Assembly: GCF_021278025.1 (NCBI RefSeq)
Contig: NZ_JAIBHJ010000006.1
Span: 1 to 64,000 of the forward strand
Length of the DNA: 64,000 nucleotides
Direction: 5' to 3'
From: Motilimonas sp. E26
GTDB taxonomy: Bacteria > Pseudomonadota > Gammaproteobacteria > Enterobacterales > CBDFNC01
Shown here: piece after piece, positions 29,517 through 44,451 of the stretch
Layout of the letters: the number at the start of each line of letters is the position of its first letter
Position numbering within the stretch: position 1 is the first letter of the stretch
Notes under the pieces: model-generated
The model's database searches: none
Told to the model about the DNA's origin: nothing
The model's input: the letters and a program-made list of their open reading frames with translations, nothing else
Position numbers and translations under genes: made by a program

Positions 29517-31097
29517 ATGAGCAAAAACATTCACGAACATCGCATTTTAATCTTAGATTTTGGATCTCAATACACGCAACTGATTGCACGTCGTATTCGT
29601 GAAATTGGGGTCTACTGTGAGCTTTGGAGCTGGGATGTTAGCGAAGAAGACATCAAAGAATTTAATCCAAATGGTATCGTGCTTGCTGGTGGCCCAGAAA
29701 GTGTTACCGCACCTAATTCGCCTCGTGCCCCTGAATACGTATTTACCGCAGGTGTACCGGTATTAGGTATTTGTTATGGCATGCAAACCATGTCTAAGCA
29801 ATTGGGTGGCGAAGTCATCAAGGGTGAAGGCGAGGGTGAATTTGGTTATGCACAAATTGAAGTGCAAAACCCATCAGAGTTGTTTAAATCGATCGAAGAT
29901 GCGGTTTCTGCTGATGGTAAAGCGCTACTTGATGTGTGGATGAGCCATGGCGATAAAGTGTCTCAAATTCCAGAAGGCTTTGTTACAGTTGCTAAGACCG
30001 CAACCTGTCAATTTGCGGCAATGGCGAACGAAGAAAAGAAATTTTACGGCGTGCAGTTCCATCCTGAAGTGACACACACTCGTCAAGGCGAGCGTATGTT
30101 ATCGCACTTTGTAAAAGACATTTGTGGCTGTGATTCATTATGGACTCCGGCTTCAATTATTGAAGATGCGGTTGCGCGTATTAAAGAGCAAGTGGGTGAT
30201 GATGAAGTTATCCTTGGTCTTTCTGGCGGGGTTGACTCATCAGTGGTAGCCATGCTTATTCAACGAGCTATAGGTGACAAGCTGACCTGTGTATTCGTTG
30301 ATAACGGTCTACTGCGCTTAAATGAAGGCCAACAAGTAATGGAAATGTTTGGTGACCATTTTGGTCTCAACATTATTCATGTGGATGCTGAAAATCGCTT
30401 CTTGGATGCCATGGCAGGCCAAAGCGACCCAGAGCAAAAACGTAAAACCATTGGTCATGTGTTTGTTGATATCTTTGATGAAGAGTCAAAGAAACTAACC
30501 AATGCAAAATGGCTAGCTCAAGGTACTATCTACCCAGACGTAATTGAATCGGCAGCGTCTAAAACAGGCAAAGCTCACGTTATTAAATCGCACCATAATG
30601 TGGGCGGTTTACCAGATGATATGGAAATGGGCTTAGTTGAGCCATTGCGTGAACTGTTTAAAGATGAAGTACGTAAAATTGGCCTAGAGCTAGGCTTGCC
30701 TTACGACATGCTTTATCGCCACCCATTCCCAGGGCCAGGCCTAGGTGTGCGCGTATTAGGTGAAGTGAAAAAAGAATACTGTGACCTGCTGCGCCGTGCA
30801 GACGCTATCTTTATCGAAGAGCTGCGCAAAGCCGACTTATACCACAAAGTAAGCCAAGCATTTGTGGTGTTCCTGCCTGTTCGCTCCGTTGGAGTAATGG
30901 GTGACTGTCGTAAGTATGATTGGGTTGTTTCACTTCGCTGTGTTGAAACCATCGACTTCATGACCGCACGTTGGTCGCATTTACCTTATGAACTCATTGG
31001 TCATGTGTCTAACCGCATTATCAATGAAATTGACGGCATCTCACGTGTAGTATATGACGTATCAGGCAAGCCGCCAGCAACCATTGAGTGGGAATAA
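29517..31097 (+). CDS. guaA: GMP synthase (glutamine-hydrolysing)
   Basis: Converts XMP to GMP. Class I glutamine amidotransferase domain about 8-200 (GICYGMQ with nucleophile Cys, FHPEVTHT with His/Glu), then the ATP pyrophosphatase domain (LSGGVDSSV) and C-terminal dimerisation domain ending in ATIEWE. ATG 29517 aligns with the E. coli start and gives 526 aa; TTG 29508 is also in frame but lies only 4 bp after GGAG. The last codons form the attachment site of the following mobile element, which restores the terminus exactly. Confidence 0.98.
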
Positions 31098-31106
31098 TCC
31101 TCCGTC
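31087..31106 (+). repeat. attL: guaA terminus direct repeat
   Basis: GAGTGGGAATAATCCTCCGT here is repeated at 43608. It includes the last guaA codons GAG TGG GAA TAA. Near-identity continues through the terminator to about 31200, so the crossover point cannot be placed inside it by eye. Confidence 0.85.
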
Positions 31107-31145
31107 TAGCAAGTACTGGCACTAACAAGCAATAAACTAGACTTA

Positions 31146-31173
31146 AGTCCGCGTAACTGCGGACTTTTTTTGT
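31146..31173 (+). terminator. guaA terminator
   Basis: AAGTCCGC-gtaact-GCGGACTT followed by TTTTT. The same hairpin occurs at 43662-43689 after the other att copy, so it is either inside the duplicated att region or carried by each element end. Confidence 0.88.
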
Positions 31174-31274
31174 TTTTAACTTAGGCAAATCTAGCACTGC
31201 CTAGCAACACCAAGCACGGTTTGACAGGGGTATTTCGCGGGGTATTATCAAACTCAATACCATTAAAGAATACC

Positions 31275-31379
31275 CGATACCATGTAATAAGCCGTTTAAC
31301 TAACATGGTATCGAAAATGATTAAGTGATTGTATTTAAATGCGATTCATATTAATTCATGGTCAGTTTTCAGCATGGTA
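31275..31379. promoter_or_regulatory. inverted repeat and CATGGT repeats at the left end (candidate arm-type sites)
   Basis: An exact 11 bp inverted repeat CGATACCATGT (31275-31285) and ACATGGTATCG (31303-31313) has a 17 bp spacer. Further CATGGT copies are at 31357 and 31373. At the right end two more occur at 43527 and 43539, close to attR. Short repeats at both ends of an integrative element are typical of integrase arm sites or excisionase (AlpA) sites; which protein binds is unknown. Confidence 0.5.
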
Positions 31380-31429
31380 TTAAATCCGAACTAAAACACG
31401 ACAATGGCTTACGCCGATGGAGCGCGCCC

Positions 31430-32617
31430 ATGCTTACCGATACCAAACTACGCAGCCTCAAACCCCGCGATAAACTTTACAAAGTTAACGACCGTGACGG
31501 CCTTTATGTGGCCGTGACCAAAGCAGGCACCGCCTCGTTTCGGTACAACTATTCCATCAGCGGCAGACAAGAAACCATCACCTTTGGTCGCTATCCTACA
31601 ATAACGCTAGCAGAAGCCAGAGAGCGATTAATCGAAGCAAAGAAGGTGATTGCATTGGGCAAGTCACCAGCCAAAGAAAAAGCCCGCAGTAAATCGCGGA
31701 TAAAGGATACTGAGACGTTTGCAGCCTGGGCTGACAAATGGCTTAGGGGTTATCAAATGGCCGACTCAACGCGCGATATGCGCCGCTCTGTGTATGAGCG
31801 AGAGCTAAAATCTAAGTTTGGTAATCACAAGCTGACGGAAATCACCCATGAAGACCTAAGGGCACTCACCGATACCATAGTAGAGCGCGGCGCACCGGCC
31901 ACTGCCGTTCATGCCCGTGATATTGTGTTACAAGTATTTCGCTGGGCCATCGAGCGTGGCCAAAAAGTTGAAAATCCCGCTGATCGGGTTCGCCCTGCTA
32001 GTATCGCCAAATTTGAGCCAAGGGATCGCACCTTAACCCCGCGTGAAATCGGCCTAATGTATCGTTACCTTGAGCAAGTAGGCACCACGCCGACTATCCG
32101 AGTAGCGGTAAAACTGCTATTGCTCACTATGGTTCGAAAAAGTGAGCTAACCAATGCCACTTGGGACGAGATTAATTTCAGTGAAGCCCTTTGGACTATC
32201 CCAAAAGAGCGGATGAAACGGCGCAACCCGCACTTGGTGTTTCTGTCTCGCCAAGTCATCGATTTTCTAATCGCCCTTAAAACCTTTTCCGGCGGTTCAG
32301 ATTACATCCTGCCATCACGCTATGACTCCGATGCCCCGATGAGCAGTGCAACTCTCAACAAAGTGCTAACGCTGACTTATAAAGCGGCGCAAAAAGATGG
32401 CCAAGACTTAGCCAAGTTTGGCCCCCATGATCTACGCCGTACCGCCAGCACCTTACTGCATGAGGCAGGTTACAACAGCGACTGGATTGAAAAATGCCTC
32501 GCCCATGAACAAAAGGGCGTTAGGGCTGTATATAACAAGGCCGAATACCGCGAGCAGCGCACCGCCATGCTACAAGACTGGGCGGATATGATTGATGAGT
32601 GGGCGGGATATCAATAA
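31430..32617 (+). CDS. int: tyrosine integrase, P4 type (DUF4102 arm domain)
   Basis: Site-specific recombinase presumed to insert the element at guaA. N-terminal arm-binding domain about 1-85 (KLYKVNDRDGLYVAV, TFGRYPTITLAEAR), core-binding domain about 100-185, catalytic domain about 205-390. Catalytic residues: Arg in LTMVRKSELTNATW, HDLRRTAST, the His in CLAHEQKG and the Tyr in AVYNKAEY. ATG 31430 preceded by GGAG (8 bp spacing) gives 395 aa and a family-like MLTDTKLRSLKP start; the frame is open from 31358. The protein points away from attL, as usual for this class. Confidence 0.93.
   Translation: MLTDTKLRSLKPRDKLYKVNDRDGLYVAVTKAGTASFRYNYSISGRQETITFGRYPTITLAEARERLIEAKKVIALGKSPAKEKARSKSRIKDTETFAAWADKWLRGYQMADSTRDMRRSVYERELKSKFGNHKLTEITHEDLRALTDTIVERGAPATAVHARDIVLQVFRWAIERGQKVENPADRVRPASIAKFEPRDRTLTPREIGLMYRYLEQVGTTPTIRVAVKLLLLTMVRKSELTNATWDEINFSEALWTIPKERMKRRNPHLVFLSRQVIDFLIALKTFSGGSDYILPSRYDSDAPMSSATLNKVLTLTYKAAQKDGQDLAKFGPHDLRRTASTLLHEAGYNSDWIEKCLAHEQKGVRAVYNKAEYREQRTAMLQDWADMIDEWAGYQ
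31530..31951 (+). repeat. long direct repeat with 43808-44236
   Basis: The integrase segment here is nearly identical to 43808-44236 (only scattered substitutions over about 420 bp). Because both are in the same orientation, homologous recombination between them would remove about 12.3 kb including almost the whole element. Confidence 0.85.
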
Positions 32618-32790: not shown

Positions 32791-34500
32791 TTATAGTTGC
32801 TCAGATGCTGTAATCCAGTCCTCAAGATAATGAAGAGGTACTGGGTATCGGTAGCTTCGACAAGCCGTCAGTATCAAAGGCGCCTTACCTGTCGTAACAG
32901 CTGACATATTCCTGAATGAATCAGCATTGCCACATTCTTGTTTTATGTGCTCTAGAGTTGCGCTTCTATCCATTGGAAAGTCGGTTGATGCAGAACCATG
33001 CGTCTCTGAGTTAGAGTACATATATTGTTCACTGCTTTGGTTTGGATACCAGTATTGTAACGTGCTATGTGCTAGTTTATCAGTGGCAAACCTTTCCAAA
33101 TCTTGGCTTACTGAATCTAGTTTATAAAGAGAGCAAAATACCGCTAATAGCGGGTATAAGATACTCGCTTCTGTAACTTTATTTTTGTAGTTACTATTGG
33201 CTTTATCTTTATTTCTATGATCAAGCAACTTCTCATAAGAATTATGAACAATTGGATACATGCCATTACTCTCGAAAGAGAAAATGCAAATATTGACCAT
33301 TTCCGTTAGCCAGCTCTGCACAAACTCATCAAGCTCTGAGTTATTTGAAAGCAAGGTTAAAGTTAAACCAAGATCAATTGCTTGTGAGTCTTTGTATGGA
33401 GACAATAATATTGGATTGTTCACAACCAAGAGGTTAATTGACTTTGTAATATCTCTGAGGCGTAAGCGGATTTTTTCCTGCTCTTCACTTTCTTCGTCTG
33501 CGGGTGGACTATCGGTACAACTTTTTGAGAGTAAGTCCAAAATCCAATGGCCTTTGACCGCCAAACGTCCCAGAACATCGAATAATTTGAGGTTTACATC
33601 AATAGAGCATGGCGAAAGGACAGCATGAGAAAGTGCATATTTATATTTAACATACGGTATTAGGCATTGGTCTACATAACAATCAGTAATTTGTTGATAA
33701 GTATCTAAAATGCGGTCGAATGATTTTGAAGGCTTGTTCCTTCCTGTGTAATGGACTTTGACTTTGTCCCAAGCTAGCAGTAATGCACGCTCCGAAGAAA
33801 GATATGCTGCTTCCAAATTTCCACCGTCTCGACACCATGAAAATAGTACCCACAAACAAACGTTAATCCGGGTTATGGACGATGCAGCAGAATCTGCATC
33901 GGTAACATTTGATAAAATTTCGTCAATCAAAAACGAAAAGTGTTTGCTTGAACTCTCGGGCTCTTCAAGTAAGGCTAAGGATTTTCTTAACAAGGCCTGA
34001 CTGGAGCTGGGCAGTAGCTCCTCCTTCAATAAGTATTGCTGAATAAACTCAGCAAGTTTATCCCCATTCCACTCTTCAAAAGAAATATTGCCTCTTGTAT
34101 TCCGCTGCTCATAGCCTGAGACCTCCTGCCTAATCCCTGAGTTAACATCCCCCCCAAAGCATAAGCAGATGACTATTTTTTTATCCCCATGTTCAGGCGG
34201 TAGGCGACTAAGGATAAATGAGTCTTGAATCTCATCTAATGAGGGTCTCAGAGCTTGGTCTGCACTACCATTCCAAGTCTCACGAGTAAGGTTTCCAGAC
34301 TTAACAGAGAACAAATAAACTTTTTCTTCCTGACCATTTACTTGCCCAACAGCCGCTATATCAACACCGTATTCTTTAACCCCACGAGTAGGTGAAATGA
34401 ACACATTCATCCCCATACTGCTTAATAGATCAGGTAATACCGCATCCAACTCCTGACGCTCTCTCAACGAGGCTAAATACTGCTTAAGAATTAGCTTCAT
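32791..34500 (-). CDS. unknown protein with N-terminal PD-(D/E)XK-like fold, candidate nuclease effector
   Basis: 569 aa, no family recognised. Residues 1-75 resemble a restriction-endonuclease-like core: an initial helix, YGVDIAAVG (Asp47) and VYLFSVKSG (Lys67), that is Asp then x-x-Lys on the next strand. Ser65 stands where Asp/Glu or Gln is usual, so catalysis is uncertain. The remaining 490 residues are mostly helical with several aromatic- and Cys-containing stretches and no TM. Its start overlaps the end of the upstream helical-repeat gene by 17 bp, so the two form an operon and probably a complex. The position beside an integrase suggests a defence function, which is inference. Confidence 0.7.
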   Translation of the reverse strand: MKLILKQYLASLRERQELDAVLPDLLSSMGMNVFISPTRGVKEYGVDIAAVGQVNGQEEKVYLFSVKSGNLTRETWNGSADQALRPSLDEIQDSFILSRLPPEHGDKKIVICLCFGGDVNSGIRQEVSGYEQRNTRGNISFEEWNGDKLAEFIQQYLLKEELLPSSSQALLRKSLALLEEPESSSKHFSFLIDEILSNVTDADSAASSITRINVCLWVLFSWCRDGGNLEAAYLSSERALLLAWDKVKVHYTGRNKPSKSFDRILDTYQQITDCYVDQCLIPYVKYKYALSHAVLSPCSIDVNLKLFDVLGRLAVKGHWILDLLSKSCTDSPPADEESEEQEKIRLRLRDITKSINLLVVNNPILLSPYKDSQAIDLGLTLTLLSNNSELDEFVQSWLTEMVNICIFSFESNGMYPIVHNSYEKLLDHRNKDKANSNYKNKVTEASILYPLLAVFCSLYKLDSVSQDLERFATDKLAHSTLQYWYPNQSSEQYMYSNSETHGSASTDFPMDRSATLEHIKQECGNADSFRNMSAVTTGKAPLILTACRSYRYPVPLHYLEDWITASEQL

Positions 34501-36226
34501 TTTTCATTCTCTCACAACGGTAAACTCGTAAAATGTAATCTAGTGACTCTGGATCTAAGACATTTAACCTTGGCATTTCAGTCGAATGGGAAAAAGAATG
34601 CATTTGCATCTCTTGTCGTATGTGCTCTCCATCTCCCCTATGTACGTAGTAAATTGAGCTATTGCCATACAATAGTGTCTGCTTGGTTGTTATTAGGTCA
34701 AAAAGCGCTCCTCTTGAGTTATCTTCGTAAGCAGCCTGCATATCTTTGTTAAATTTTTTCCAATAAGCGCTTACATTTTCTCTGGGAGCCATCAACTCTT
34801 TAAGTTCCGAGACTTTACCAATATCAGAATGATAAGCTTGAAGCTTAGCAAGCAACCGCTTACATGGGGGAGCTTGAAAGCCTTTATCAATGCACGATTG
34901 GAAGAATCGCTTTAGTTCCCCTGGATAACTTAAAAGCAAGGGTTCATACAAAACCTGTTCAAGCTCTTTACGAGTAGTTTCCGAAGCTGTTTCGTAAATC
35001 GATAGAATGAAGCTTGCCGCTGTAACAGGCTGCATAAACAGCCAGCCGACCGCTTTGTGGCTAACAAACACTTGTGTTGCTTCATCACCTAGCAATCCCA
35101 TCTCCGCCTCTAGCTCGACATCTCTGACCGTAACGTCATAAAGTAAATCTGAAACACCATGATAAAGTGAGGAATTACCAGACAAAAACCACTTTGTGAC
35201 AATATGATTAAGTAGCTCGCGATGCTTGCTCAGTAGTTCTCTAGAAAAGTAATCCAGTTGGGGGAACTTCACACCCACAGTCAAAATCGATTCCAATAAC
35301 CTCAAGGCAAGGGAGGAGGCCCCCTTCTCGACTAGATTGACCAATAAGTAATCAATATTGTCTATGATGTCTTTGTGCTCAGGAGAGATATTGGCGAACT
35401 GCTTTAGAAGAATATTTAGAACACTATCCGGCAAATCAACTCTTTGAAAGGCGACAATATCTGATATTTCATAGATAACCTTTGGAGTTGGTGTCTCAAC
35501 AAATGTAGGTAGAAATTCCGCAATCTGCGACCAGTAGGATGGATACGTATTCCCAAAGTGAAGTGATGCCCGTAGTATTGAAGTGCGACAACTATCTTCT
35601 CGTTCGCTACTGGCACTACCGCGAAGTAATTCCCAAATGAGATTGGCCTGAGTTTTACCCACATCAAGCTTCCCCAAGCTAAAATAGGCTTGGTTTCTTA
35701 CCATCTCATTTTTGTTACTGAGCAGTTTTTGGGTCGTTTGTATAGCATCGGTCATATGGTCTGAGTCGTATGCGAGAATTGAGCTGGAGAGAAAATTAGC
35801 ATATGCACCAAGCTCATTTTGTTTCAGAATGAATAAGATGCTATTTCTGGAGCGCTCTGCTTCAACACTACAGAAATGCTCAAATGCTCGATAGAGTCCA
35901 CCGATGGCTGAATTTCTACCAGCTTGTTTACTAAGGTGAACTAGGCAGTCTAGAACATCTTCAACATTTGCATTTAGTGAAGGTAGCACGTTCTCAAAAG
36001 CATGTAGAACTGTAAATAAATCGTGCTCGCGGGAGCTTTTATCAATTCCTCTAATTATCTTGATAAGGTCAATTTTTCCAGCGTTATGAAGCTCAGATAG
36101 TGAATCATTTAATACCTTCTCTTCCGATCTTATTTCCTCTACATACAACTTATTAACCTGAGCAAGAAATTCCTCAGCCCTTTTACTAGCAGCTAGTATC
36201 CTAGTTTTTGTTTCTTTTAATGACAC
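34484..36226 (-). CDS. unknown helical-repeat (HEAT/ARM-like) protein, partner of the downstream gene
   Basis: 580 aa, no family recognised. The N-terminus (about 1-60) is a charged coiled-coil-like helix; from about 75 to 470 the protein consists of helical pairs, for example LLSNKNEMVRNQAYFSLGKL and LLVNLVEKGASSLALRLLES, consistent with an alpha-solenoid scaffold. No nucleotide-binding or catalytic motif is seen. The start is GTG 36226 after GGGGGTAGA. It is first in a two-gene operon and the overlap of 17 bp with the second gene implies coupled translation. It might act as sensor or scaffold for the nuclease-like partner. Confidence 0.72.
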   Translation of the reverse strand: MSLKETKTRILAASKRAEEFLAQVNKLYVEEIRSEEKVLNDSLSELHNAGKIDLIKIIRGIDKSSREHDLFTVLHAFENVLPSLNANVEDVLDCLVHLSKQAGRNSAIGGLYRAFEHFCSVEAERSRNSILFILKQNELGAYANFLSSSILAYDSDHMTDAIQTTQKLLSNKNEMVRNQAYFSLGKLDVGKTQANLIWELLRGSASSEREDSCRTSILRASLHFGNTYPSYWSQIAEFLPTFVETPTPKVIYEISDIVAFQRVDLPDSVLNILLKQFANISPEHKDIIDNIDYLLVNLVEKGASSLALRLLESILTVGVKFPQLDYFSRELLSKHRELLNHIVTKWFLSGNSSLYHGVSDLLYDVTVRDVELEAEMGLLGDEATQVFVSHKAVGWLFMQPVTAASFILSIYETASETTRKELEQVLYEPLLLSYPGELKRFFQSCIDKGFQAPPCKRLLAKLQAYHSDIGKVSELKELMAPRENVSAYWKKFNKDMQAAYEDNSRGALFDLITTKQTLLYGNSSIYYVHRGDGEHIRQEMQMHSFSHSTEMPRLNVLDPESLDYILRVYRCERMKNEANS

Positions 36227-36337: not shown

Positions 36338-36559
36338 TTAGAGAGAGCACAAGCTATCCTGAGCAACAGGAAAATTTTTGCTTGTCTCTTCGTCCAAACG
36401 AAGCGCTTTACTTACCGCAGCTAAGGATCGCGAAACGCCTTGGTGAGTGGAGTTTTTGCCAAATATCACCGTTAGTTTTTCGGCTATTTCTCGCTGGGTT
36501 AGCCCTCGTTTACGCAGCACTAGCATTCTTTTTGTAGTCTGTTGGCGGGGGTCAACCAT
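36338..36559 (-). pseudogene. HTH module, repeat copy 3 (degraded)
   Basis: A 73 aa frame whose first 55 residues match the C-terminus of the gene ending at 36898 (RGLTQREIAEKLTVIFGK, HQGVSRSLAAVSKALRLD), then run into unrelated sequence. The start MVDPRQQTTKR corresponds to the internal MVDQRLTDDKK of the full gene. It may be expressed as a free HTH peptide, but there is no clear SD and a decayed duplication is the simpler reading. Confidence 0.5.
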
Positions 36560-36623
36560 GTCACGGGCTGGTGTGGCTAGTTCACTAACAAAACTGCCAT
36601 GAGTGGCTCAAAAATTTTAGCCG

Positions 36624-36815
36624 CTAAAATTTTTTGCTCTTCCTAACATCCAACCGAAACGCTTTGCTTACCGCTGCTAAGGATCGCGAAACGCCTTGGT
36701 GAGTGTAGTTTTTGCCAAAAATCATCGTTAGTTTTTCGGCTATTTCTCGCTGGGTTAGCCCTCGTTTACAAAGCACTAGCATTTTTTGGTCGTCTGTTAG
36801 GCGTTGGCCAAGCAT
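36624..36815 (-). pseudogene. HTH module, repeat copy 2
   Basis: A 63 aa frame starting MLGQRLTDDQKMLVLCKRG and containing the complete HTH segment with few changes, followed by its own stop and the palindrome at 36611-36633. It is the same module as the C-terminus of the gene at 36898-38079. It may be a mini-regulator or only a duplicated 3' end. Confidence 0.5.
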
Positions 36816-36866
36816 GTTGCTGGCTAGGTTGGCTAGTTCACTAACAAAACTGTCTTTCGCGACTCA

Positions 36867-36889
36867 AAAATTTTAGCGGCTAAAATTTT
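36867..36889. repeat. perfect 11 bp palindrome, copy 1
   Basis: AAAATTTTAGC-g-GCTAAAATTTT directly after the stop of the 36898-38079 gene. A near-identical palindrome (central base C) lies at 36611-36633 after HTH copy 2. It could be a terminator or a protein-binding or recombination site. Confidence 0.75.
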
Positions 36890-36897
36890 AGCTCGCC

Positions 36898-38079
36898 CTA
36901 GTCGTCCAACCGAAACGCTTTACTTACCGCAGCCAAGGATCGCGAAACGCCTTGGTGAGTGTAGTTTTTGCTAAATATCACCGTTAGTTTCTCGGCTATT
37001 TCTCGCTGAGTTAGCCCTCGTTTACGCAGCACTAGCATTTTTTTTTTGTCGTCTGTTAGGCGTTGGTCAACCATGTCTCGGGCTAGGTTGCGTAGCTCAC
37101 GAATGTTAGTTGGCCCTAGCGCCGTGTCTGCATCAGTCATTTCATCAATGATGGCGTCAATACGTTCACTGGTTGCGTTATCTGCAATAATCGGATTGGC
37201 AAAGAGCTGTCGGAGGTAGTTAAAACATGCGGTTGCTTTTTCTGGCGGGATAGCTTTGTTCTTCAGGTAGTAATAGAAGTATTCATCGATGAGCACATCA
37301 CCAGAGCGTGCATTGTATTTGTCGGGGTGTGCTATTTGTCGGCGCAACCTAAGTAATTCAATTTCAAATTGCTCGGCTGTGCGTTTGGCTTTTTTGTATT
37401 GCGGGTTCCACGTGCCATCATGAAACTTTGCTTTATGTTCGTGGCAGTACTTGTGACTAAGATCAGGCCGCTTTTTTTTATTGCGTAGTGTATCTCGTTG
37501 ATCATTCGTTAAATCATCTTCAAGATATGGATTTTGTTTCCACTCGGCCATAAATGCCGCAAATTCGGTTTGATTACCACAAAACTTACAATGCTTGATT
37601 GGCCTTTGGGTGTTGATGGCGGCATCTGGTGTTAAGCGGGGTCTATGTGGCCTTTTATCTTCGCAATAGCCGAAAAAGGTAATCAGCGCCTCTTGTGTGG
37701 CAATAAAACATTGTTTCTCTTGCTCGGTATAGTGATGCAGCTCCATGAACCAGCAAAGCCAATTTTTTATTGAGTCAACGGTTTCGCGAAATCCGACTGA
37801 TTTAACAAGATCACTGTAGTTTACGCTGGGTGGGCGAACTGGCATGTAATTTATGTAGCCTTCAGGGTGTTTGGCCAAAAAATTAACAATGGCGGGGTCA
37901 ATAGTCTCTTTAATCAGTCTGATTAAGTTGTTTGATTTTGATGCTAATGAATAGGTTCGCCATCTTTCTCTAAACGCAGCTATTGCATCCGCTACAGTAG
38001 TATCACAATCGGGCCATATCGGTATGTAAAAATCACCCAATCGCTCTTCTACTTGTTCCTCTGTCTCAATGTTTTTCAT
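36898..38079 (-). CDS. unknown protein with zinc-ribbon and C-terminal HTH
   Basis: About 393 aa from ATG 38079 (start MKNIETEEQVEERLGDF); the frame is open to 38244 but that part overlaps alpA. A putative zinc ribbon is formed by CKFCGNQTEF and, about 50 residues later, YCHEHKAKFHDG. A helical region follows. The C-terminal 55 residues form a resolvase/sigma-like HTH (LRKRGLTQREIAEKL, then HQGVSRSLAAVSKAF), suggesting DNA binding. It is divergent from alpA, so it may regulate the alpA-repA-repC operon. Its 3' end is duplicated twice downstream. I do not recognise the family. Confidence 0.7.
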   Translation of the reverse strand: MKNIETEEQVEERLGDFYIPIWPDCDTTVADAIAAFRERWRTYSLASKSNNLIRLIKETIDPAIVNFLAKHPEGYINYMPVRPPSVNYSDLVKSVGFRETVDSIKNWLCWFMELHHYTEQEKQCFIATQEALITFFGYCEDKRPHRPRLTPDAAINTQRPIKHCKFCGNQTEFAAFMAEWKQNPYLEDDLTNDQRDTLRNKKKRPDLSHKYCHEHKAKFHDGTWNPQYKKAKRTAEQFEIELLRLRRQIAHPDKYNARSGDVLIDEYFYYYLKNKAIPPEKATACFNYLRQLFANPIIADNATSERIDAIIDEMTDADTALGPTNIRELRNLARDMVDQRLTDDKKKMLVLRKRGLTQREIAEKLTVIFSKNYTHQGVSRSLAAVSKAFRLDD

Positions 38080-38164
38080 ATTCTCGAATTTTGTCCAACT
38101 ACTAAGACTAATGTACAGGCAATTGCTGGCATTATCAAGCATATACCTATGATGAGGAGGCGCT

Positions 38165-38404
38165 ATGAAATCAGTCATTTCAAGCAAAACATTGATTAAC
38201 AGAAGAACATTGCTCGCTATGATCCCTTTGTCTGATCGAACCATCTACAACCTAGAGCTGCGCGGTGAGTTTCCTCGCCGTATTGTGCTGACCTGCCGAA
38301 ATGTGGCTTGGGATTTAGCCGAAGTAGAGCAGTGGATTGAAAAGCGAAAATCAGCCTCAATCCAAGCGATCCGCCCAGGCAATATGATTTCTGGGAAGTG
38401 GTAA
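38165..38404 (+). CDS. alpA: AlpA-family transcriptional regulator / excisionase
   Basis: A 79 aa MerR-like winged-helix protein: LINRRTLLAMIPLSDRTIYN, then GEFPRRIVLTCRNVAWDLAEVEQWIEKR, the AlpA signature. Strong SD GAGGAGG before ATG. AlpA proteins commonly activate integrase or act as directionality factors in P4-like elements. It overlaps the start region of repA, so both probably lie in one operon with repC. Confidence 0.92.
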   Translation: MKSVISSKTLINRRTLLAMIPLSDRTIYNLELRGEFPRRIVLTCRNVAWDLAEVEQWIEKRKSASIQAIRPGNMISGKW

Positions 38405-38406
38405 TT

Positions 38407-39255
38407 ATGGCCCTTGATTTGTTGATGGCGTTTCAGCAACGGCCGCCTGAGATTGATTATGTGTTGCCAAATATGGTGGCGGGTACGGTGGGGGCAATTG
38501 TGTCGCCAGGTGGCGCGGGTAAGTCTATGTTTGCATTGCAACTTGCTGCGCAAATTGCCGGAGGGCCAGATCTGCTTGGTTTGGGGGAGCTAACCAAGGG
38601 GCCTACGGTTTTTCTGCCCGCTGAAGACCCGCCCGTTGCCATTTATCATCGCTTGCATGCGCTTGGTGCCATGCTTACTCGCGATCAACATCATAGGGTT
38701 GCCGCAGGGTTATTGATTGAGCCTTTGATTGGTCGGTGCCCAGATATTATGTCGATGGCTTGGTTTGATGGCATTAAGCAAGTTGCTGAGGGTAAGCGCT
38801 TGATGTTCTTAGATACATTACGGCGTTTTCATATTGAAGACGAAAATGCCAGCGGCCCGATGGCGCAAGTGATTGGCCGGATGGAAACCATAGCAGCGGA
38901 GACGGGCTGCTCGATTGTATTTTTGCATCACTCGAATAAAGGGGCCGTGTCGATGGGGGCTGGCGATCAGCAGCAAGCGAGTCGGGGGAGCAGTGTGTTG
39001 GTGGATAACATTCGTTGGCAAGCTTACTTATCGAGTATGACCTTAGCTGAATCTGAGCAATGGGGCGTCTGTGAGGCTCGTAGAGGCTTTTTCGTGCGCT
39101 TTGGTATAAGCAAGGCTAACTATGGTGCCCCGTTCCCTGAGCGTTGGCTGAGGCGTCATGAGGGCGGGGTGTTAAAACCTGCCGTACTAGAACGAAAGAT
39201 ACAAAAACCACCCGTTAAGCTAAAAGCTGCGGCTTGGGGGGACGATGACTGGTAA
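38407..39255 (+). CDS. repA: RepA-like hexameric replicative helicase (RSF1010/IncQ type)
   Basis: Closely resembles RSF1010 RepA throughout: YVLPNMVAGTVGAIVSPGG, then the Walker A lysine in GGAGKSMFALQLA, Walker B RLMFLDTLRRFH, and IVFLHHSNKG and QQQASRGSSVLVDNIRW. About 282 aa against roughly 280 for RSF1010 RepA. It would unwind DNA 5'-3' at the element's origin. ATG 38407 is preferred; GTG 38398 is also in frame and overlaps the alpA stop. It overlaps repC by 11 bp. No RepB-type primase gene is present in the element. Confidence 0.93.
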   Translation: MALDLLMAFQQRPPEIDYVLPNMVAGTVGAIVSPGGAGKSMFALQLAAQIAGGPDLLGLGELTKGPTVFLPAEDPPVAIYHRLHALGAMLTRDQHHRVAAGLLIEPLIGRCPDIMSMAWFDGIKQVAEGKRLMFLDTLRRFHIEDENASGPMAQVIGRMETIAAETGCSIVFLHHSNKGAVSMGAGDQQQASRGSSVLVDNIRWQAYLSSMTLAESEQWGVCEARRGFFVRFGISKANYGAPFPERWLRRHEGGVLKPAVLERKIQKPPVKLKAAAWGDDDW

Positions 39256-39997
39256 TAAAGTGGCACCAACCAGCACGGCATTACAAGCGCGCTTAAGGCT
39301 TTATCAACCTACGCAGCGGCCTTGTGAGCGCCAAGGTCATTGGATGGAAACCAGCTTTGGTCGCTGCAAAGTAACGGGCAGGCTTGGCCAGCGCCATGCC
39401 GATGTGATTGAGGGGATGCTTTACGTTGCAGAAAAAAAGCGTGATGTATCCGATGGCGGGGTTGAGCTTTTGGTTGATCCAGCTAAATTGCGCCGAGTAC
39501 TTTCTGATAACCAATACAGCATGGCACAGCTTGAGAAGCTGTTAACCGAACTAAGGGCTGCAACCATTAGCATCGAAGTCGCCCAGTTTGATTTTCCAAT
39601 CATCGGGGGCTTGATTGATCATGTTATTCCATCGCCTATGACGCGCTATGACCCTTTGAAGCAGGGTGAGCGCAATCTGTGGCGGGTGAGGCTAGGAAAA
39701 GCTCTTGTAATGCTGCTGGAGCACGATTTTTCGTTACATTACCCGCCCACCGCAATTGCTCGTCTGAATTACGGCATCAGTCAGGCGGTGGCTCGCCATG
39801 TGTTAAGCCATAAGAATGCGCCATTGGGAGGCTGGTATTTAGATACGCTGATTGTTGCCGTCTGTGGCGAGGGATTAAGTAGCCAAACTTTGCGAGATAG
39901 ACGAAGACGGCTAAAAAAAGATGCGAGTGGATTGCAGATACTTGGTATCGAAATAACCCCTGATAATAAAGTAAAGCGTGGCACACCCGCCCGATAG
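39245..39997 (+). CDS. repC: RepC-like replication initiator
   Basis: A 250 aa protein directly after repA, the position of the iteron-binding initiator RepC in IncQ plasmids. Winged-helix features: LLVDPAKLRRVLSDNQYS, LWRVRLGKALVMLLEHDF, and a C-terminal basic recognition segment TLRDRRRRLKKDASG. Similarity to RSF1010 RepC is weaker than for RepA. The last codons (RGTPAR, stop) are encoded by the first iteron, which begins inside the gene, so initiator and binding site overlap. Confidence 0.82.
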   Translation: MTGNKVAPTSTALQARLRLYQPTQRPCERQGHWMETSFGRCKVTGRLGQRHADVIEGMLYVAEKKRDVSDGGVELLVDPAKLRRVLSDNQYSMAQLEKLLTELRAATISIEVAQFDFPIIGGLIDHVIPSPMTRYDPLKQGERNLWRVRLGKALVMLLEHDFSLHYPPTAIARLNYGISQAVARHVLSHKNAPLGGWYLDTLIVAVCGEGLSSQTLRDRRRRLKKDASGLQILGIEITPDNKVKRGTPAR

Positions 39998-40059
39998 CGT
40001 GGCACACCCGCCCGATGGCGTGGCACACCCGCCCGGTAGCGTGGCACACCCGCCCGATA
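39976..40059 (+). repeat. four 21 bp iterons (candidate oriV)
   Basis: GCGTGGCACACCCGCCCGAT plus one base, starting at 39976, 39997, 40018 and 40039, nearly identical (copy 3 has GGT in place of GAT). An exact 21 bp period puts all copies on one helix face. They directly follow and partly overlap repC, as iterons do at IncQ and similar origins (20 bp in RSF1010). Confidence 0.92.
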
Positions 40060-40239: not shown

Positions 40240-40599
40240 TCAAAACAGATCATCGCTGTTTGGGTTTGGATTGAAGCTAAAGTTTTTTGGTTTTCCGGTG
40301 GCTAAAGCCTTGTTATCACTTGAAGCATCTGACTTGTTCTGGCGTGTTGCTTTAGTGGCTTTATCTTGGTGTTTTATATGATCGTTCACATATTTGCAGA
40401 AGGTTTGATAGGTGCATTGGATGAGATCCGTTGCCGTTAAATGGCTATGTATGTCTTTGCAGGAGAAGCCATTGTCGAGTGCATTGGCAATATCGTCCTT
40501 GAGGGTTAAGAAAATCCTTTTATGATCACCTTTTTGATGACCGGTATCTTTACGTTTTTGTTCAAGCCATTCATTTAGCCGCTCAGTAAACTTAGACAT
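40240..40599 (-). CDS. traK: TraK-like oriT-accessory DNA-binding protein
   Basis: About 119 aa. The N-terminal 75 residues (FTERLNEWLEQKRK, IFLTLKDDIANALDNGFSCKDI, YQTFCKYVNDHI) follow the pattern of IncP TraK, which binds beside the nic site and bends oriT DNA for the relaxosome. The C-terminal 40 residues are Lys/Asn/Ser-rich and low in complexity. ATG 40599 is preceded by AAGGTG with 7 bp spacing. The RP4-like oriT lies just upstream, and traK reads away from it, the same layout as in RP4. Confidence 0.8.
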   Translation of the reverse strand: MSKFTERLNEWLEQKRKDTGHQKGDHKRIFLTLKDDIANALDNGFSCKDIHSHLTATDLIQCTYQTFCKYVNDHIKHQDKATKATRQNKSDASSDNKALATGKPKNFSFNPNPNSDDLF

Positions 40600-40749
40600 G
40601 CTTTTCACCTTACTTTTGTTTATCGATACGAGACTTTTACTGATTTCAGCAATGCTCTTACGCAGTTATGTTATTGCTGTGTCATAACTTAGGTTACTTT
40701 TGCAGTATTTTAGTTTATTTCTTTAAAATCAATATGGTGAGATATCGAT

Positions 40750-40777
40750 TTACGCTTTAATTACGCGAGAATTACGC
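40750..40777. promoter_or_regulatory. three helically phased TTACGC repeats
   Basis: TTACGC at 40750, 40761 and 40772, spacing 11 bp, between traK and the nic region in AT-rich DNA. This is where TraK binds in RP4; a role as TraK sites is inferred. Confidence 0.5.
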
Positions 40778-40821
40778 TTGATGTATGGTGAAAATACGGT
40801 TGGATTCTACGCCAAATGGCT

Positions 40822-40945
40822 GGCAGGATAGGTGAAGTAGGCCCACAAATAAATTTGTTGTACCTCTTCACATTTTTGCTTATTCGCACCAAGGTGCTCA
40901 ACGAAATCCTGCTCTGCGAGGCTAAATATCGCTACCGCGATCCTC
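40822..40945 (-). other. oriT: RP4 (IncP)-like oriT
   Basis: Read on the plus strand: GGCAGGATAGGTGAAGTAGG, then an inverted repeat, then CTTATTCGCACC, GGTGCTCAACG, and AATCCTGCTCTGCGAGGC. These blocks match the RP4 oriT as I recall it. The minus strand carries CTTCACCTATCCTGCC, the IncP nic region (nick at TATCCTG/C). Outer arms GTGAAG (40832) and CTTCAC (40866) are kept, whereas the inner arms have changed to ACAAAT and ATTTGT and still pair. No relaxase gene is present, so a TraI-type enzyme would have to act in trans. Confidence 0.88.
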
Positions 40946-41267
40946 AACCACTATGCCACTGCAACCAATGCTAAATGGTACATGAAGGGGGGTATGTACA
41001 GCCGAATAGGGGAGGGGGGAGATAGATTTTCTTTATGGCGTTAAAACGCTTTTAGGCTTTTAAACATGCTTTTTGCATAGTATGGACTTCACATTCTAGT
41101 GTAAGTTTGCTGTGTAAATGATTGTTTACTTTAGATAAAAATCATGTGAACATGATGGTGTATATAAATCTTTGTTTGAGATGTTTAAAAGCTGTGGCAG
41201 GGAGCAGAACTAAATTATGTAGCAAATTTAGTCATTTTGTGTAACTAAAAGCAAGGAGCTAATAACT
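40946..41267. other. gene-free stretch beside oriT
   Basis: About 320 bp between oriT and the first membrane-protein gene. In RP4 traJ would start here; no TraJ-like frame is seen. It contains a G-rich run (40985-41024) and AT-rich DNA before the SD at 41253, which may hold a promoter. Confidence 0.5.
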
Positions 41268-41693
41268 ATGAACTCATCACTAAACGTTCCAACGGACAAC
41301 CCTTATAAGCTAATGGCAATTGTTGGGGCGATAACTTTTGTATTCGGGATCTATTTTCTTCTAAGTCAAACATACAAATACAATGATGCGATTTTTCAAG
41401 CTCTAGAAAAAATATCAATTATCCAGGCACAAGATGAACTACCTGAGAAGGTAAAAAATGATAGAGTGGCAATTGAAAACAGAAAAATTGAAATTGTAAC
41501 CACCGATAGTAAATATTTCCCCTTTTTGTGTAGTGTGATATCCGCTATTGGGCTCATACTCTGTGGTATAGGTTTTTATCACTGGATATATAATGTTTAC
41601 CCAGACGAAGAATCGATACGTAAAGAACAACTAAAAAGTTTACGCATAGCTAATCAATCAGCATCAAGAACTAGGTTAACTAGGCGTGCATAA
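41268..41693 (+). CDS. small membrane protein of unknown function, two TM
   Basis: 141 aa: TM1 about 15-33 (LMAIVGAITFVFGIYFLL), an intervening charged region 38-83, TM2 about 86-107 (FLCSVISAIGLILCGIGFY) and a basic C-terminal tail (about 115-141). A good SD, AAGGAG, precedes the ATG. It is in the accessory part of the element with a second membrane gene 114 bp downstream. No family recognised. Confidence 0.6.
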   Translation: MNSSLNVPTDNPYKLMAIVGAITFVFGIYFLLSQTYKYNDAIFQALEKISIIQAQDELPEKVKNDRVAIENRKIEIVTTDSKYFPFLCSVISAIGLILCGIGFYHWIYNVYPDEESIRKEQLKSLRIANQSASRTRLTRRA

Positions 41694-41807
41694 TCATAAT
41701 TAAGCTCAATTTCGTGCAAATGACTCCTTTAAAGGCTGCTGTGTTTAGCTTTGTCGTAATGGCCATACCAGATTCATACTGAATTCTAAAGAATGGAAAT
41801 CTAATTC

Positions 41808-42179
41808 ATGGGAAGAAGACATCGCAGGAGACGCAGCACTAGCATTGCTTCTGTCATTCCAGATATTGTGCATGTTGCGTCGCGATTGCCGTGGTGGGGG
41901 GCATTTTTAACCGGAATTATTGCTTACTTCCTGATTGCCATCCTTCTTGGTGGTTACATCGAAGGGCATATTGCTAGTCAAGCCGAATCAAAATTCTACG
42001 TTATTATCGAGGCTCGCTTTGGCCGTTTGGTACACGTATGCAATTGGGTTGGTATAGCTGGTTTTCTAGTAGGGGTATTTTTCGCAATCCGTAACTACTT
42101 TGTACTCAGTCGCGCTACCAGCAATGAAAAAGGTATTGTTACTTTTCTTTCTAAACTAGTCAGCAGAAGCGTCGATTAG
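41808..42179 (+). CDS. small membrane protein; resembles the N-terminal membrane part of some Mrr-like nucleases
   Basis: 123 aa. Very basic start MGRRHRRRRSTS, then IVHVASRLPWWGAFLTGIIA (TM about 33-54) and a second TM (about 77-101). An Arg-rich start followed by LPWW and a TM occurs, as I recall, at the N-terminus of membrane-bound Mrr-type restriction proteins; the nuclease domain itself is missing here and no continuation is seen downstream. It could be a truncated remnant or a free membrane protein. Confidence 0.5.
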   Translation: MGRRHRRRRSTSIASVIPDIVHVASRLPWWGAFLTGIIAYFLIAILLGGYIEGHIASQAESKFYVIIEARFGRLVHVCNWVGIAGFLVGVFFAIRNYFVLSRATSNEKGIVTFLSKLVSRSVD

Positions 42180-42291
42180 CAACAAGTTCACTTGTTTATG
42201 TTGTTCGCCTTGAGTTTAGTTACCTTGTTCACTTTTTAATGCTGTTCATTATTTTTGAACATTATTTTTTATTGAACAGCTGCCATAGTAG

Positions 42292-42594
42292 CTATTTCTG
42301 ACGCTCCTTAAACTCTCCCAAAACACTCGCATCAAGCTCTGTTAATGCTTGAGCATTCAGGTGAGAAATGGCTTCTAAGCGAGCGCTCATCGGCCTAAAT
42401 GATGAAACAGAATCAGCATTCTTGCTTTCTAAAACTTTCATAAGGCCTTCAAAATAAGCGGCGCTCATCATGTAACCAGCTGGCTCATTGTTCGATAAAA
42501 CCACCACAGGCTCCCCTGATAAGCAATCTTTAAAGTGCTTTCTAGCCTCGCTTGATGACACAGCTTTTTCTGCATAGATTGTACTTGTTTTCAT
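42292..42594 (-). CDS. Phd/YefM-family antitoxin, no partner toxin seen
   Basis: A 100 aa protein whose first 60 residues have the Phd/YefM fold (SSSEARKHFKDCLSGEPVVVLSNNEPAGYMMS) that binds operator DNA and, through its C-terminus, a toxin. SD AGGTG 5 bp before ATG. The 110 bp downstream hold no toxin frame, only an inverted repeat GCTGTTCA (42240) ... TGAACAGC (near 42275). It may be orphaned, or work on a toxin elsewhere; higBA is adjacent but divergent and unrelated. Confidence 0.78.
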   Translation of the reverse strand: MKTSTIYAEKAVSSSEARKHFKDCLSGEPVVVLSNNEPAGYMMSAAYFEGLMKVLESKNADSVSSFRPMSARLEAISHLNAQALTELDASVLGEFKERQK

Positions 42595-42775
42595 GATACA
42601 CCTGAGTACTTAATTGTGTACTCAACATTGTATATTGGCATTGCATGCTTTTACAGAATCAAACTGTTTGAAGTGTTTTTGAACAGGTTGATTCATTGAG
42701 CAGAGGTTGTCTCCATGTTTTTTGCATCTAGCAAAATTATGAGGCCGAACTTCACCGGCAATTGCATACACTAGC

Positions 42776-42804
42776 TTGACGCACAACTAGGTTGTGCATA
42801 AAAT
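42776..42804 (+). promoter_or_regulatory. higBA promoter with operator in the spacer
   Basis: TTGACG (42776-42781), 17 bp spacer, TAAAAT (42799-42804). The spacer is filled by the palindrome GCACAA-ctagg-TTGTGC (42781-42797), an ideal site for autorepression by HigA or the HigBA complex. higB starts 24 bp downstream. Confidence 0.8.
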
Positions 42805-42828
42805 GAAGTAAAAATAGGTAAGATTTCT

Positions 42829-43122
42829 ATGGCAATTGAGTTTAGAGATACTTGGTTAGAAGCTTTTTACGAAGAAGATAAAGGCTACAAAAAGATACCC
42901 AGTAACATTGAAAGCGCGCTATTTAGAAAGCTTCAGATCTTGGATGCAGCGACTCAAGAGTCGGATTTAAGAATTCCTCCTGGCAATCGTTTTGAGCACC
43001 TACAGGGGAATTTGTCAGGGTGGTGCTCTATCCGTGTAAATAAGCAATATCGACTTATTTTTCGCTGGGAAGATGGTGTTGCTTTGGATGCTTACTTAGA
43101 TCCGCACGTTTATAAAGGCTAG
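42829..43122 (+). CDS. higB: HigB-type toxin (RelE/ParE superfamily)
   Basis: 97 aa mRNA interferase toxin. Family landmarks: an N-terminal MAIEFRDTWLEAFYE, central LDAATQESDLRIPPGNRFEHL, and C-terminal SIRVNKQYRLIFRWEDG and AYLDPHVYKG. As usual for hig loci, the toxin precedes its antitoxin, 12 bp apart. It may stabilise the mobile element. Confidence 0.93.
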   Translation: MAIEFRDTWLEAFYEEDKGYKKIPSNIESALFRKLQILDAATQESDLRIPPGNRFEHLQGNLSGWCSIRVNKQYRLIFRWEDGVALDAYLDPHVYKG

Positions 43123-43134
43123 TGGAGGTAAGAT

Positions 43135-43461
43135 ATGAGAAATACAAAACGTCGTCCGGTGACTGTTGGACAAATGCTAACACTAGAGTTTCTTGAGCCG
43201 ATGAACATTGAAATCAATGAACTAGCCCAAGCGATGGGCGTTCACAGAAATACACTGAGCCGAATTGTGCATGATAAAGGCACGTTAACCGCACCTATGG
43301 CAATTAAATTGGCGGCAGCCTTGGGTAACACACCTGAGTTTTGGCTGAATATCCAACATGCGGTAGAAATTTGGGATGTAAGGCACAGAGCTTATGAGCA
43401 AGAAGCTAAGAATGTGCGCCGAGTGAAGCCACATTTAGATGATGCAAGCTTAGCGAGTTAA
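43135..43461 (+). CDS. higA: HigA antitoxin (Xre HTH)
   Basis: 108 aa. HTH about 30-70: INELAQAMGVHRNTLSRIVH, then TAPMAIKLAAALGNTPEFWLNIQ, the characteristic HigA sequence. SD GGAGG before the ATG (TGGAGGTAAGAT). It neutralises HigB and represses the promoter through the palindrome at 42781-42797. Confidence 0.94.
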   Translation: MRNTKRRPVTVGQMLTLEFLEPMNIEINELAQAMGVHRNTLSRIVHDKGTLTAPMAIKLAAALGNTPEFWLNIQHAVEIWDVRHRAYEQEAKNVRRVKPHLDDASLAS

Positions 43462-43607
43462 CCCTTTACCAAGTTGGAACGAAAAAATGTGTGATTAAGT
43501 TAAAAATAATCACCAAATTTTCTAAGCATGGTACAAATCATGGTTTTAGATTTCAGGTGTTATTTAAGTGTCTGAACTAAAAGGTTTTTAAGTGTTAGTT
43601 GATAATA

Positions 43608-43628
43608 GAGTGGGAATAATCCTCCGTT
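43608..43628 (+). repeat. attR: second copy of the guaA terminus
   Basis: Matches 31087-31106 with one difference (TCCGT then T in place of C). Near-identity continues over the terminator hairpin to about 43715, with small deletions relative to the left copy (for example 4 bp at 43656). It therefore also looks like the attL of a second, decayed element whose integrase remnant follows. Confidence 0.82.
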
Positions 43629-43661
43629 TAGCAAGTACTGGCACTAACAAGCAATAAACTT

Positions 43662-43689
43662 AAGTCCGCGTAACTGCGGACTTTTTTTG
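43662..43689 (+). terminator. second copy of the guaA-type terminator
   Basis: AAGTCCGC-gtaact-GCGGACTT plus T run, identical to 31146-31173. It no longer follows a complete gene. Confidence 0.8.
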
Positions 43690-43735
43690 TTTTTAACCTA
43701 GGCAAATCTAGCACGGTTTGACAGAGGAATGACCA

Positions 43736-44236
43736 AGCAACCTCAAATCACATGACAAACTCTATAAGGTAAATGATAGAGATGCCCTGTATGTTGCCGT
43801 TATCAAAGCAGGCACCGCTTCATTTCGTTACAACTATTCCATCAGCGGCAGACAAGAAACCATCACCTTTGGTCGCTATCCTACAATCACGCTAGCAGAA
43901 GCCAGAGAACGATTAATCGAGGCAAAGAAGTTGATTGCATTGGGCAAGTCACCAGCCAAAGAAAAAGCCCGCAGTAAATCGCGGATAAAGGATACTGAGA
44001 CGTTTGCAGCCTGGGCTGACAAATGGCTTAGGGATTATCAAATGGCCGACTCAACGCGCGATATGCGCCGCTCTGTGTATGAGCGAGAGCTAAAACCTAA
44101 GTTTGGTAATCAAAAGCTGACAGAAATCACCCATGAAGACCTACGGGTACTCACCGATACCATAGTAGAGCGCGGCGCACCGGCCACTGCCGTTCATGCC
44201 CGTGATATTGTGTTACAAGTATTTCGCTGGGCCATC
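43736..44236 (+). pseudogene. truncated second P4-type integrase
   Basis: Open frame in phase with the integrase at 31430 from its ...LKSHDKLYKVND to VLQVFRWAI. The first about 10 codons and the promoter region are lost and the catalytic domain is missing after 44236. From about 43808 on the DNA is nearly identical to 31530-31951. It is the relic of a related element once in tandem at guaA, cut by the IS3-type fragment that begins at 44237. Confidence 0.88.
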
Positions 44237-44451
44237 AGCTGCCTTGCCCATTTATCGACGGTTGACTTGCCTAACTCTAGTGACTCAGCAACCTCGCGAA
44301 CTGAGCGCCCTTGTCGACGATTTCTTGGGCAACTTCTAGTCGGAATTCTGGTGAATAAGTTAGTCTTGTACGTTTTGACACATTGATACCTGCTTAGTTA
44401 CGGTGATCTTATCACCTCTAATCAGGTGGCCAAAATAGTTGTACCACTACA
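44237..44451 (-). pseudogene. IS3-type insertion sequence fragment, OrfA N-terminus
   Basis: On the minus strand: an IS end starting TGTAGTGGTACAAC (at 44451), about 60 bp leader, then VSKRTRLTYSPEFRLEVAQE and, after a one-base frameshift near the DKG codons, RSVREVAESLELGKSTVDKW. This is the N-terminal HTH of IS3-family OrfA. The rest of the IS is missing: its truncated side joins the integrase remnant and its intact terminus joins the GrpB fragment, so a deletion removed the remainder. Confidence 0.78.

Follow-up and report, generated by a model that had tools for sequence, protein, structure and literature searches.

A 12.5-kb island at guaA in Motilimonas sp. E26 is probably a mobilisable genomic island without a relaxase (MGI, or "iOriT"), of the GIsul2 kind, for which an IncP-1-like helper would provide relaxosome and pore. 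It lies in the window analysed here, the first 64,000 nucleotides of contig NZ_JAIBHJ010000006.1 (RefSeq assembly GCF_021278025.1). The island has recognisable modules, att sites and an oriT, it lacks the relaxase and coupling-protein families that were searched for, and its design recurs in other genomes; its mobilisation is predicted from these features. An earlier note, made from the sequence alone, had proposed that the island lacks a relaxase and is built for mobilisation by an incoming IncP-like plasmid or ICE, and that proposal fits the tests reported below and is supported by them, as a recurrent kind rather than a one-off. The kind is already known, relaxase-less IMEs having been named iOriT (PMC11389934) and dependence on IncP helpers having been proposed for GIsul2 (PMC5704250, PMC9376610); added here are the oriT site in these islands, a layout with TraK only, and Olokun cargo.

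The island runs from 31087 to about 43612 on a contig of 229,713 bases. Its left boundary, attL, has the core GAGTGGGA at the guaA 3' end (31087..31100, plus strand), a core at guaA that is also reported for GIsul2 (PMC9376610), and attR is a copy of the guaA 3' flank (43605..43714, plus strand); the two appear as direct repeats D7-D8 (31083-31197 / 43605-43714). Between them lie a tyrosine integrase of the P4/GIsul2 type (31358..32617, plus strand; PF00589, PF13356, PF22022), OloB (32791..34500, minus; PADLOC PDLC03926, E=7.7e-205), OloA (34484..36226, minus; PDLC03925, E=4.7e-116), a helix-turn-helix (HTH) protein (36898..38244, minus), an AlpA-like regulator (38165..38404, plus), RepA, RepC, iterons, TraK, oriT, two small ORFs, a YafN-like antitoxin gene and a HigB-like toxin with its HTH antitoxin (HigBA; 42829..43461, plus; PF05015, PF01381), in that order. 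The integrase, RepA, RepC, TraK and HigBA are full-length ORFs. Both members of the OloA and OloB pair that identifies Olokun anti-phage defence are present according to PADLOC, a prediction from sequence, and this defence and HigBA would be cargo and maintenance genes. The HTH protein is conserved beside alpA in the island family (36-43% identity to the window protein in an 8-row alignment), and the ORF of the AlpA-like regulator begins within its gene. This regulator is 71% identical to its Oceanisphaera homologue and 57% identical to the product of a gene annotated as a helix-turn-helix transcriptional regulator in E. coli HKUOPY1. A 3'-terminal segment of the HTH gene occurs three times in 36371-37103, with a 256-bp period and 88-89% identity; the copies meet at an AT-rich inverted repeat of 24 bp.

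The replication genes are of IncQ type. The RepA-like helicase (38398..39255, plus strand; PF13481, E=8.4e-28) is 41-46% identical to RepA of IncQ-like plasmids, and the RepC-like initiator (39245..39997, plus) is 71% identical to its homologue in pSMBC31-5K and 61% to that in pJF-707. Four 21-bp iterons follow (39976..40059, plus; direct repeats D3). The iteron AGCGTGGCACACCCGCCCGAT has the same core, with at most one mismatch, and the same spacing in three other islands (L100, L101, L121), and in plasmid pSMBC31-5K it is found letter for letter in the first copy, again with the same spacing. The shared iterons and RepC support a putative IncQ-type replicative stage of the excised circle. Four IncQ-type plasmids that share RepA and RepC were considered as the source of the oriT and rejected, no RP4-like oriT being found in them.

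The RP4-like oriT occupies 40822..40923 on the plus strand, as judged by alignment with RP4, blastn, and pattern searches against shuffles. All oriT motifs named in the earlier note are present there on the plus strand; its coordinates, 40822-40945, have the right start and an end 22 bases past the aligned part. When aligned locally with RP4 integrated in E. coli S17-1 (L142), which served as the reference, 83 of 106 columns were identical (identities counted from the printed alignment), with a score of 89 against 33 for the best of 500 single-base shuffles, and the identification as an IncP-type oriT stands. The conserved nic region and nic-side arm, from GGCAGG to GGCCCAC, match RP4 at 25 of 25 bases, and nic itself is expected on the minus strand at 5'-CTTCACCTATCCTG/CC, at the left end of the oriT. 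Among 72,556 plasmid records the best blastn matches to this oriT had E=1e-9 and were mostly to plasmids of about 50 kb. The 19-bp inverted repeat of the RP4-like (IncP/MOBP) type, GTGAAGTAGGCCCACAAAT / ATTTGTTGTACCTCTTCAC (40832..40871, plus strand), has complementary arms with a weak middle: 14 of 19 positions pair in the window and 16 of 19 in RP4, the unpaired positions in the window being 7, 8, 10, 11 and 13. The pattern CAGGATAGGTGAAGT-N32..48-TTATTCGC occurs once in the window.

RP4 oriTs that derive from vectors do turn up in genome assemblies. Ten near-identical contigs that carry the RP4 oriT, about 4.65 kb long except for one of 3.86 kb, were found in assemblies of different genera (L019, L022, L030, L034, L039, L042, L045, L050, L060, L077) and are probably vector carry-over, and L056, one of the TraI-less sites counted below, has the RP4 oriT sequence and may also be a vector. 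That the window oriT arose in this way, or is a chance similarity, has next to no probability and is refuted by three observations: it and RP4 disagree in 23 of 106 alignment columns, it is embedded in a 12.5-kb island on a contig of 229,713 bases, and the search pattern appeared in 0 of 100 shuffles.

The earlier note had also suggested selection on structure for this inverted repeat, with the outer arms kept while the inner arms changed to another complementary pair. The outer positions (6 of 6 paired) and the inner ACAAAT/ATTTGT (6 of 6) agree with that description, but the middle positions do not, only 2 of 6 being paired, equal lowest with L036 among 20 relaxase-less arm pairs; L052, among the relaxase-less pairs added later, has 1 of 6. 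For the oriT family as a whole the arms covary. Right arms were anchored on CTTCAC, which replaced a best-pairing choice of the right arm that favours pairing, and 67 of 82 sites were usable (15 skipped), giving 41 distinct arm pairs. At positions 13-19, 227 of 287 were paired (shuffle mean 164.6, sd 6.1, maximum 186) and at positions 7-12, 157 of 246 (mean 98.8, maximum 122), counts reached in 0 of 5000 shuffles each, with relatedness among sites ignored in this and the following shuffle statistics. The relaxase-less subset, with ten TraI-less sites left out (24 loci, 25 sites, 20 distinct pairs), gave 115/140 for the inner positions (mean 88.6, maximum 106) and 75/120 for positions 7-12 (mean 50.7, maximum 70). 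With those ten sites added (34 loci, 35 sites, 6 skipped for want of the anchor, 24 distinct pairs) the figures were 139/168 (mean 103.7, maximum 122) and 88/144 (mean 56.5, maximum 77), and for relaxase-bearing sites (28 loci, 5 sites skipped, 18 distinct pairs) they were 98/126 and 74/108; each of these six counts was again reached in 0 of 5000 shuffles. That the arms stay complementary in relaxase-less islands is what would be expected if these islands are still transferred.

To the left of the oriT, in the position and orientation that traK has in RP4, lies a gene for a TraK-like oriT-binding protein (40240..40608, minus strand). It matches PF17273 (E=9.8e-18; 64.5 bits against a curated cut-off of 25.9), shares 24% identity with its RP4 counterpart (E=3e-14), which it resembles at the C-terminus, and begins 214 bp from the nic motif, the distance in RP4 being 226 bp. 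The earlier note had likewise placed a TraK-like gene in the RP4 position. In a TraK tree the window protein forms a long branch of unsure placement, and the tree says nothing on its origin. Two rows of that tree (L002, L003) belong to elements with TraI, complete in G351 and truncated in G177, as seen in L011 and L010, and in two others (L033, L089) the sequence ends too early to judge TraI. Given the divergence and the long branch, the fit of the window TraK to an IncP relaxosome is unproven.

To the right of the oriT, where RP4 has traJ and traI, the window has two unrelated small ORFs of 141 and 123 aa (41268..42179, plus strand) that look membrane-like by eye; they had no match in a Pfam search and showed no similarity to TraJ, TraI, TrbJ or TrbL. 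No trace of these four proteins was found in 40601-43620, and across the whole window only TrbL gave matches, at E of at least 0.2, which agrees with the earlier statement that traJ, traI and mating genes are missing. Searches of the own genome (4.6 Mb, 84 contigs, estimated as 100% complete) found neither a PF03432 relaxase nor a PF02534 coupling protein, so any helper would need to arrive from outside. If instead a non-canonical relaxase in the island or chromosome served the oriT, the island would be a canonical IME, and streptococcal IMEs that can encode such relaxases provide a precedent (PMC5704250). In the island, the HTH protein (448 aa) and the pair of small ORFs to the right of the oriT, all with no assigned function, would be the candidates. 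However, the AlphaFold model of the 448-aa protein is all-helical, with a mean pLDDT of only 61.5 (low, and too weak for a fold search), unlike the relaxase fold, which is alpha/beta. In several islands of the GIsul2 type a homologue of this protein adjoins alpA, PF03432 has no match in the genome, and in relatives the oriT goes with TraI-type relaxases (26 of the 76 sites described next), which together make a non-canonical relaxase very improbable.

The exact oriT pattern was found at 75 loci (76 sites) in GTDB genome contigs. Classed from stretches of at most 8 kb, 26 of the 76 sites have TraI and 31 do not, the latter comprising 19 with TrbJ and/or TrbL and 12 without TraI, TrbJ or TrbL, one of which (L078) has TraJ; at 9 sites the stretch ends too soon to judge, and 10 on vector-like contigs were set aside. 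These counts (31 versus 26 of 76, from stretches of at most 8 kb) suggest that at RP4-like oriTs in GTDB relaxase-less IncP mimics are about as frequent as relaxase-bearing elements, and guaA islands of the GIsul2 kind account for many of the 31 sites that lack TraI. At 7 of the 19 Trb-bearing TraI-less sites the stretch right of the oriT was shorter than 2 kb; five of these (L028, L029, L035, L054, L079) were extended or lie at a contig end and L088 was not extended, and at L054 the Trb genes of the second site lie on the opposite side of the oriT. For 22 TraI-less loci the whole genomes, 20 in number, were searched for PF03432, and 12 have a match (short contigs limit some of these loci); the sole match on an oriT-bearing contig (G405:C9) is a separate relaxase-bearing element, L074. 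An RP4-like oriT query matched 235 of 5,426 E. coli genomes, in 171 chromosomal places and 66 on plasmids; at least 80% of the query was covered in 138 genomes, and the total takes in partial matches as well as laboratory strains that carry RP4 genes, S17-1 among them.

Two further groups of sites were seen in this survey. In Janthinobacterium genomes there are RP4-like oriTs whose inverted repeats are short and whose surroundings, within the stretch, gave no Tra or Trb match (L025, L040, L041, L061, L065, L083, L093); an integrase match lies near six of the seven (none in L040), two genomes carry more than one such oriT, and these sites are possibly another family of oriT-only elements. In uncultured Shewanella (L024, L043, L052; NZ_CANLZC010000143, 186) there are several oriT-like sites; the arms of two are of an unusual ACATGTAC type, and one 10.8-kb contig holds two sites.

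Inspection of 20 neighbourhoods of up to 20 kb, plus further ones, showed that the window island has company. Besides it, 14 guaA islands have an integrase and an RP4-like oriT with no TraI match in the stretch (L100-L106, L108, L110, L112, L116, L121, L131 and L107/L140); L103 and L108 look like near-copies, and for L140 the absence of a relaxase refers to a genome-wide PF03432 search that gave no match. L100, L101, L103, L105, L106, L108, L121, L131 and L107/L140 have both att cores. TrbJ and TrbL occur in 12 of the 14, being absent from L107/L140, while L112 is cut by a contig end, and TraK occurs in two (L106, L116). The fullest layout, TraK-oriT-TraJ-TraI-TrbJ-TrbL, was found in L011 and on a Xanthomonas plasmid (L122). 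The same order without TraI appears in L106 and L114, and TraK-oriT-TrbJ-TrbL in L116; oriT-TrbJ-TrbL is the layout of GIsul2 and most others, with TraJ behind TrbL in L100, L101, L109 and L121. The window has TraK and oriT only, and an Oceanisphaera island (L107) has oriT only. This graded series is a comparison of layouts; as an evolutionary path it is unproven.

An integrase search of 369 genomes of the class returned 7 at E<=1e-90, including the window's genome. Five of the six others were inspected (G550 was not), and all five islands are at guaA; the oriT was found in one (L131), two of the four islands without it being stretches of 6 and 8 kb only. Across 394 genomes of the order TraK was found in 5, a slightly looser oriT pattern in 5, and both in 3 (G000, G177, G351); the combination of oriT, traK and guaA, which the earlier note had proposed looking for, occurs there only in the window, and the three do stand together in the Xanthomonas islands L106 and L116. 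In the three other genomes of the genus, about 1.5 kb past guaA showed no similarity to the island integrase in G037 and G057, and G012 has a related integrase.

Some islands had additional features. In Verticiella sediminum (L102; G400:C21:761608 and 766047) two RP4-like oriTs, with arms of the AGGCCCAC and TAGCTAAT types, are separated by 4.4 kb; one is flanked by guaA/int and the HTH gene and the other precedes trbJ, which possibly makes one island usable by two helper types. Castellaniella defragrans may have the same double oriT split over two contigs (L112 and L119; G401 contigs C2 and C13), and in its L119, a guaA-type island, oloA/oloB lie at +7120..+10412 from the oriT, just before the attR core. 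Related IMEs lie beside an rpoD-like sigma-factor gene in G177 (L010) and G351 (L011), the latter with complete traI, trbJ and trbL, the former with a truncated traI that has an in-frame stop and with no Trb match. Past attR in the window (43605-44386), the guaA 3' flank is present a second time, next to a truncated copy of the integrase (43737-44239; 93% identity over 504 bp); these are the remnant of another, older island at the same site.

Several of these observations bear on whether the window island is a decaying IncP island from which traJ, traI and trbJKL were deleted, leaving oriT and traK as fossils with no present function. Relaxase-bearing relatives do exist, L011 beside the rpoD-like gene and an island at guaA in E. 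coli HKUOPY1. The latter resembles the window island in its integrase (82%), RepC (69%) and iterons, which are nearly the same (96.8% over 62 bp), and it encodes a TraK-family protein, a mobilization protein in the place of TraJ, and a TraI relaxase. The earlier note had named a relaxase in related elements as evidence against its reading, and this island provides it in part, but its mobilisation module is of another kind, with no oriT that fits the search pattern. The truncated, stop-containing traI of G177 and the poorly paired middle arm of the window would also suit decay, and the truncated integrase beyond attR indicates that decay is ongoing at the guaA locus. In the island itself, however, the att sites, integrase, RepA, RepC, iterons, TraK and HigBA are full-length, no remnants of TraI, TraJ, TrbJ or TrbL were found, the nic side of the oriT is that of RP4, and other islands that have both att cores and covarying arms are relaxase-less too. 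Decay to a functionless state is thus unlikely. Given the relaxase-bearing relative in HKUOPY1, the window island may nonetheless be the reduced product of a fuller island.

If the island is a relaxase-less MGI with an IncP-1-like helper, its transfer could proceed as follows. By homology, the integrase and AlpA would excise it at the GAGTGGGA site of guaA. An incoming IncP-1-like plasmid or ICE would supply TraI and TraJ, recognising nic and the nic-side arm that is identical to that of RP4, as well as the coupling protein and pore, and the island's own TraK would probably help to shape the oriT for the helper's relaxosome. The IncQ-type RepA and RepC, with the iterons, would probably keep or amplify the excised circle before integration at the recipient's guaA. 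More broadly, and with slightly less than even confidence, we suggest that guaA islands of the GIsul2 kind are satellites of IncP-1-like plasmids. Each would have a mimic of the helper's oriT, with arms tuned to the particular TraJ types of its helpers, and an IncQ-type replicon to serve the excised circle. From none to several of TraK, TraJ and TrbJKL would accompany these, and the satellites would ferry anti-phage defence; the window would be a reduced form for which an oriT and its own TraK suffice. The Olokun genes suggest that relaxase-less IncP mimics can carry phage defence, and some islands of the GIsul2 kind are vehicles of sul2 and arsenic resistance. For these islands the IncP-helper hypothesis gains a concrete, testable site, the RP4-like oriT between repC and trbJ.

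The window island combines parts that are known from several systems. With the relaxosome region of RP4 (IncP-1alpha) it shares nic, the nic-side arm, the right-hand blocks and the place of TraK, but not traJ and traI. Its RepC and RepA resemble those of the IncQ-type pSMBC31-5K (71% and 45%) and pJF-707 (61% and 41%), and the pSMBC31-5K iteron is identical, whereas these two are plasmids, typed MOBP, with no RP4-like oriT by the search pattern. SXT-helped MGIs and SGI1 have SXT ICEs or IncA/C plasmids as helpers, other oriTs and other integration sites. Like the window island, they are relaxase-less and use the relaxase or pore of a helper (PMC5704250). The same source describes IncP islands in Brucella suis and Burkholderia glumae that share the guaA site, RepA, TraK and a proposed IncP helper, but they encode a MobP relaxase, TraJ, TrbJ and TrbL, and the window has no TraI or TraJ beside its oriT. 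Transfer is on record for ICERspD18B, a guaA element with int, alpA, repA, repC and trbJKL that moved from Rheinheimera to the E. coli guaA site at 2.76e-7 per donor, and which is also annotated with relaxase genes in IS91-floR repeats (PMC7775301). Closest in content among the islands inspected is the guaA island of Oceanisphaera arctica (L107/L140), with similar integrase (81%), AlpA (71%), RepA (72%) and HigB (92%), an RP4-like oriT, no Trb, and no PF03432 relaxase in its genome. It differs from the window island in having no TraK, an oriT arm of the TAGCTAAT type, and no Olokun match in 20-kb stretches.

GIsul2 itself has been listed among MGIs without a relaxase and, with its TrbJ/TrbK/TrbL, proposed to use the MobP relaxase of IncP helpers (PMC5704250); its integrase mediates excision and integration, and the island is described as probably mobilisable with IncP plasmids as likely helpers (PMC9376610). 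In pIP40a (NZ_KX156772) we found an RP4-like oriT between repC and trbJ of GIsul2, with one mismatch in the nic core; the gene table used, which holds protein-coding and resistance genes only, lists nothing at this place, and the original record may differ. The word oriT occurs 0 times in PMC9376610, and a literature search, outside which the GIsul2 paper of Harmer et al. 2017 (Plasmid) fell, found no report of a GIsul2 oriT. GIsul2 has AlpA, RepA, RepC and an integrase of the same types as the window island and no relaxase match in its stretch, and in addition trbJ-trbK-trbL, arsenic genes and sul2, with no TraK seen and an oriT arm of the TAGCTAAC type, whereas the window island has the RP4 arm AGGCCCAC. 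The window island has the features of the GIsul2 kind in its place at the guaA 3' end with GAGTGGGA repeats, its P4-type integrase, its AlpA-RepA-RepC genes and its want of a relaxase. Of trbJ-trbK-trbL the search covered TrbJ and TrbL and found neither in the window, and we therefore call the island a variant rather than GIsul2, one with TraK and Olokun cargo and without the Trb genes.
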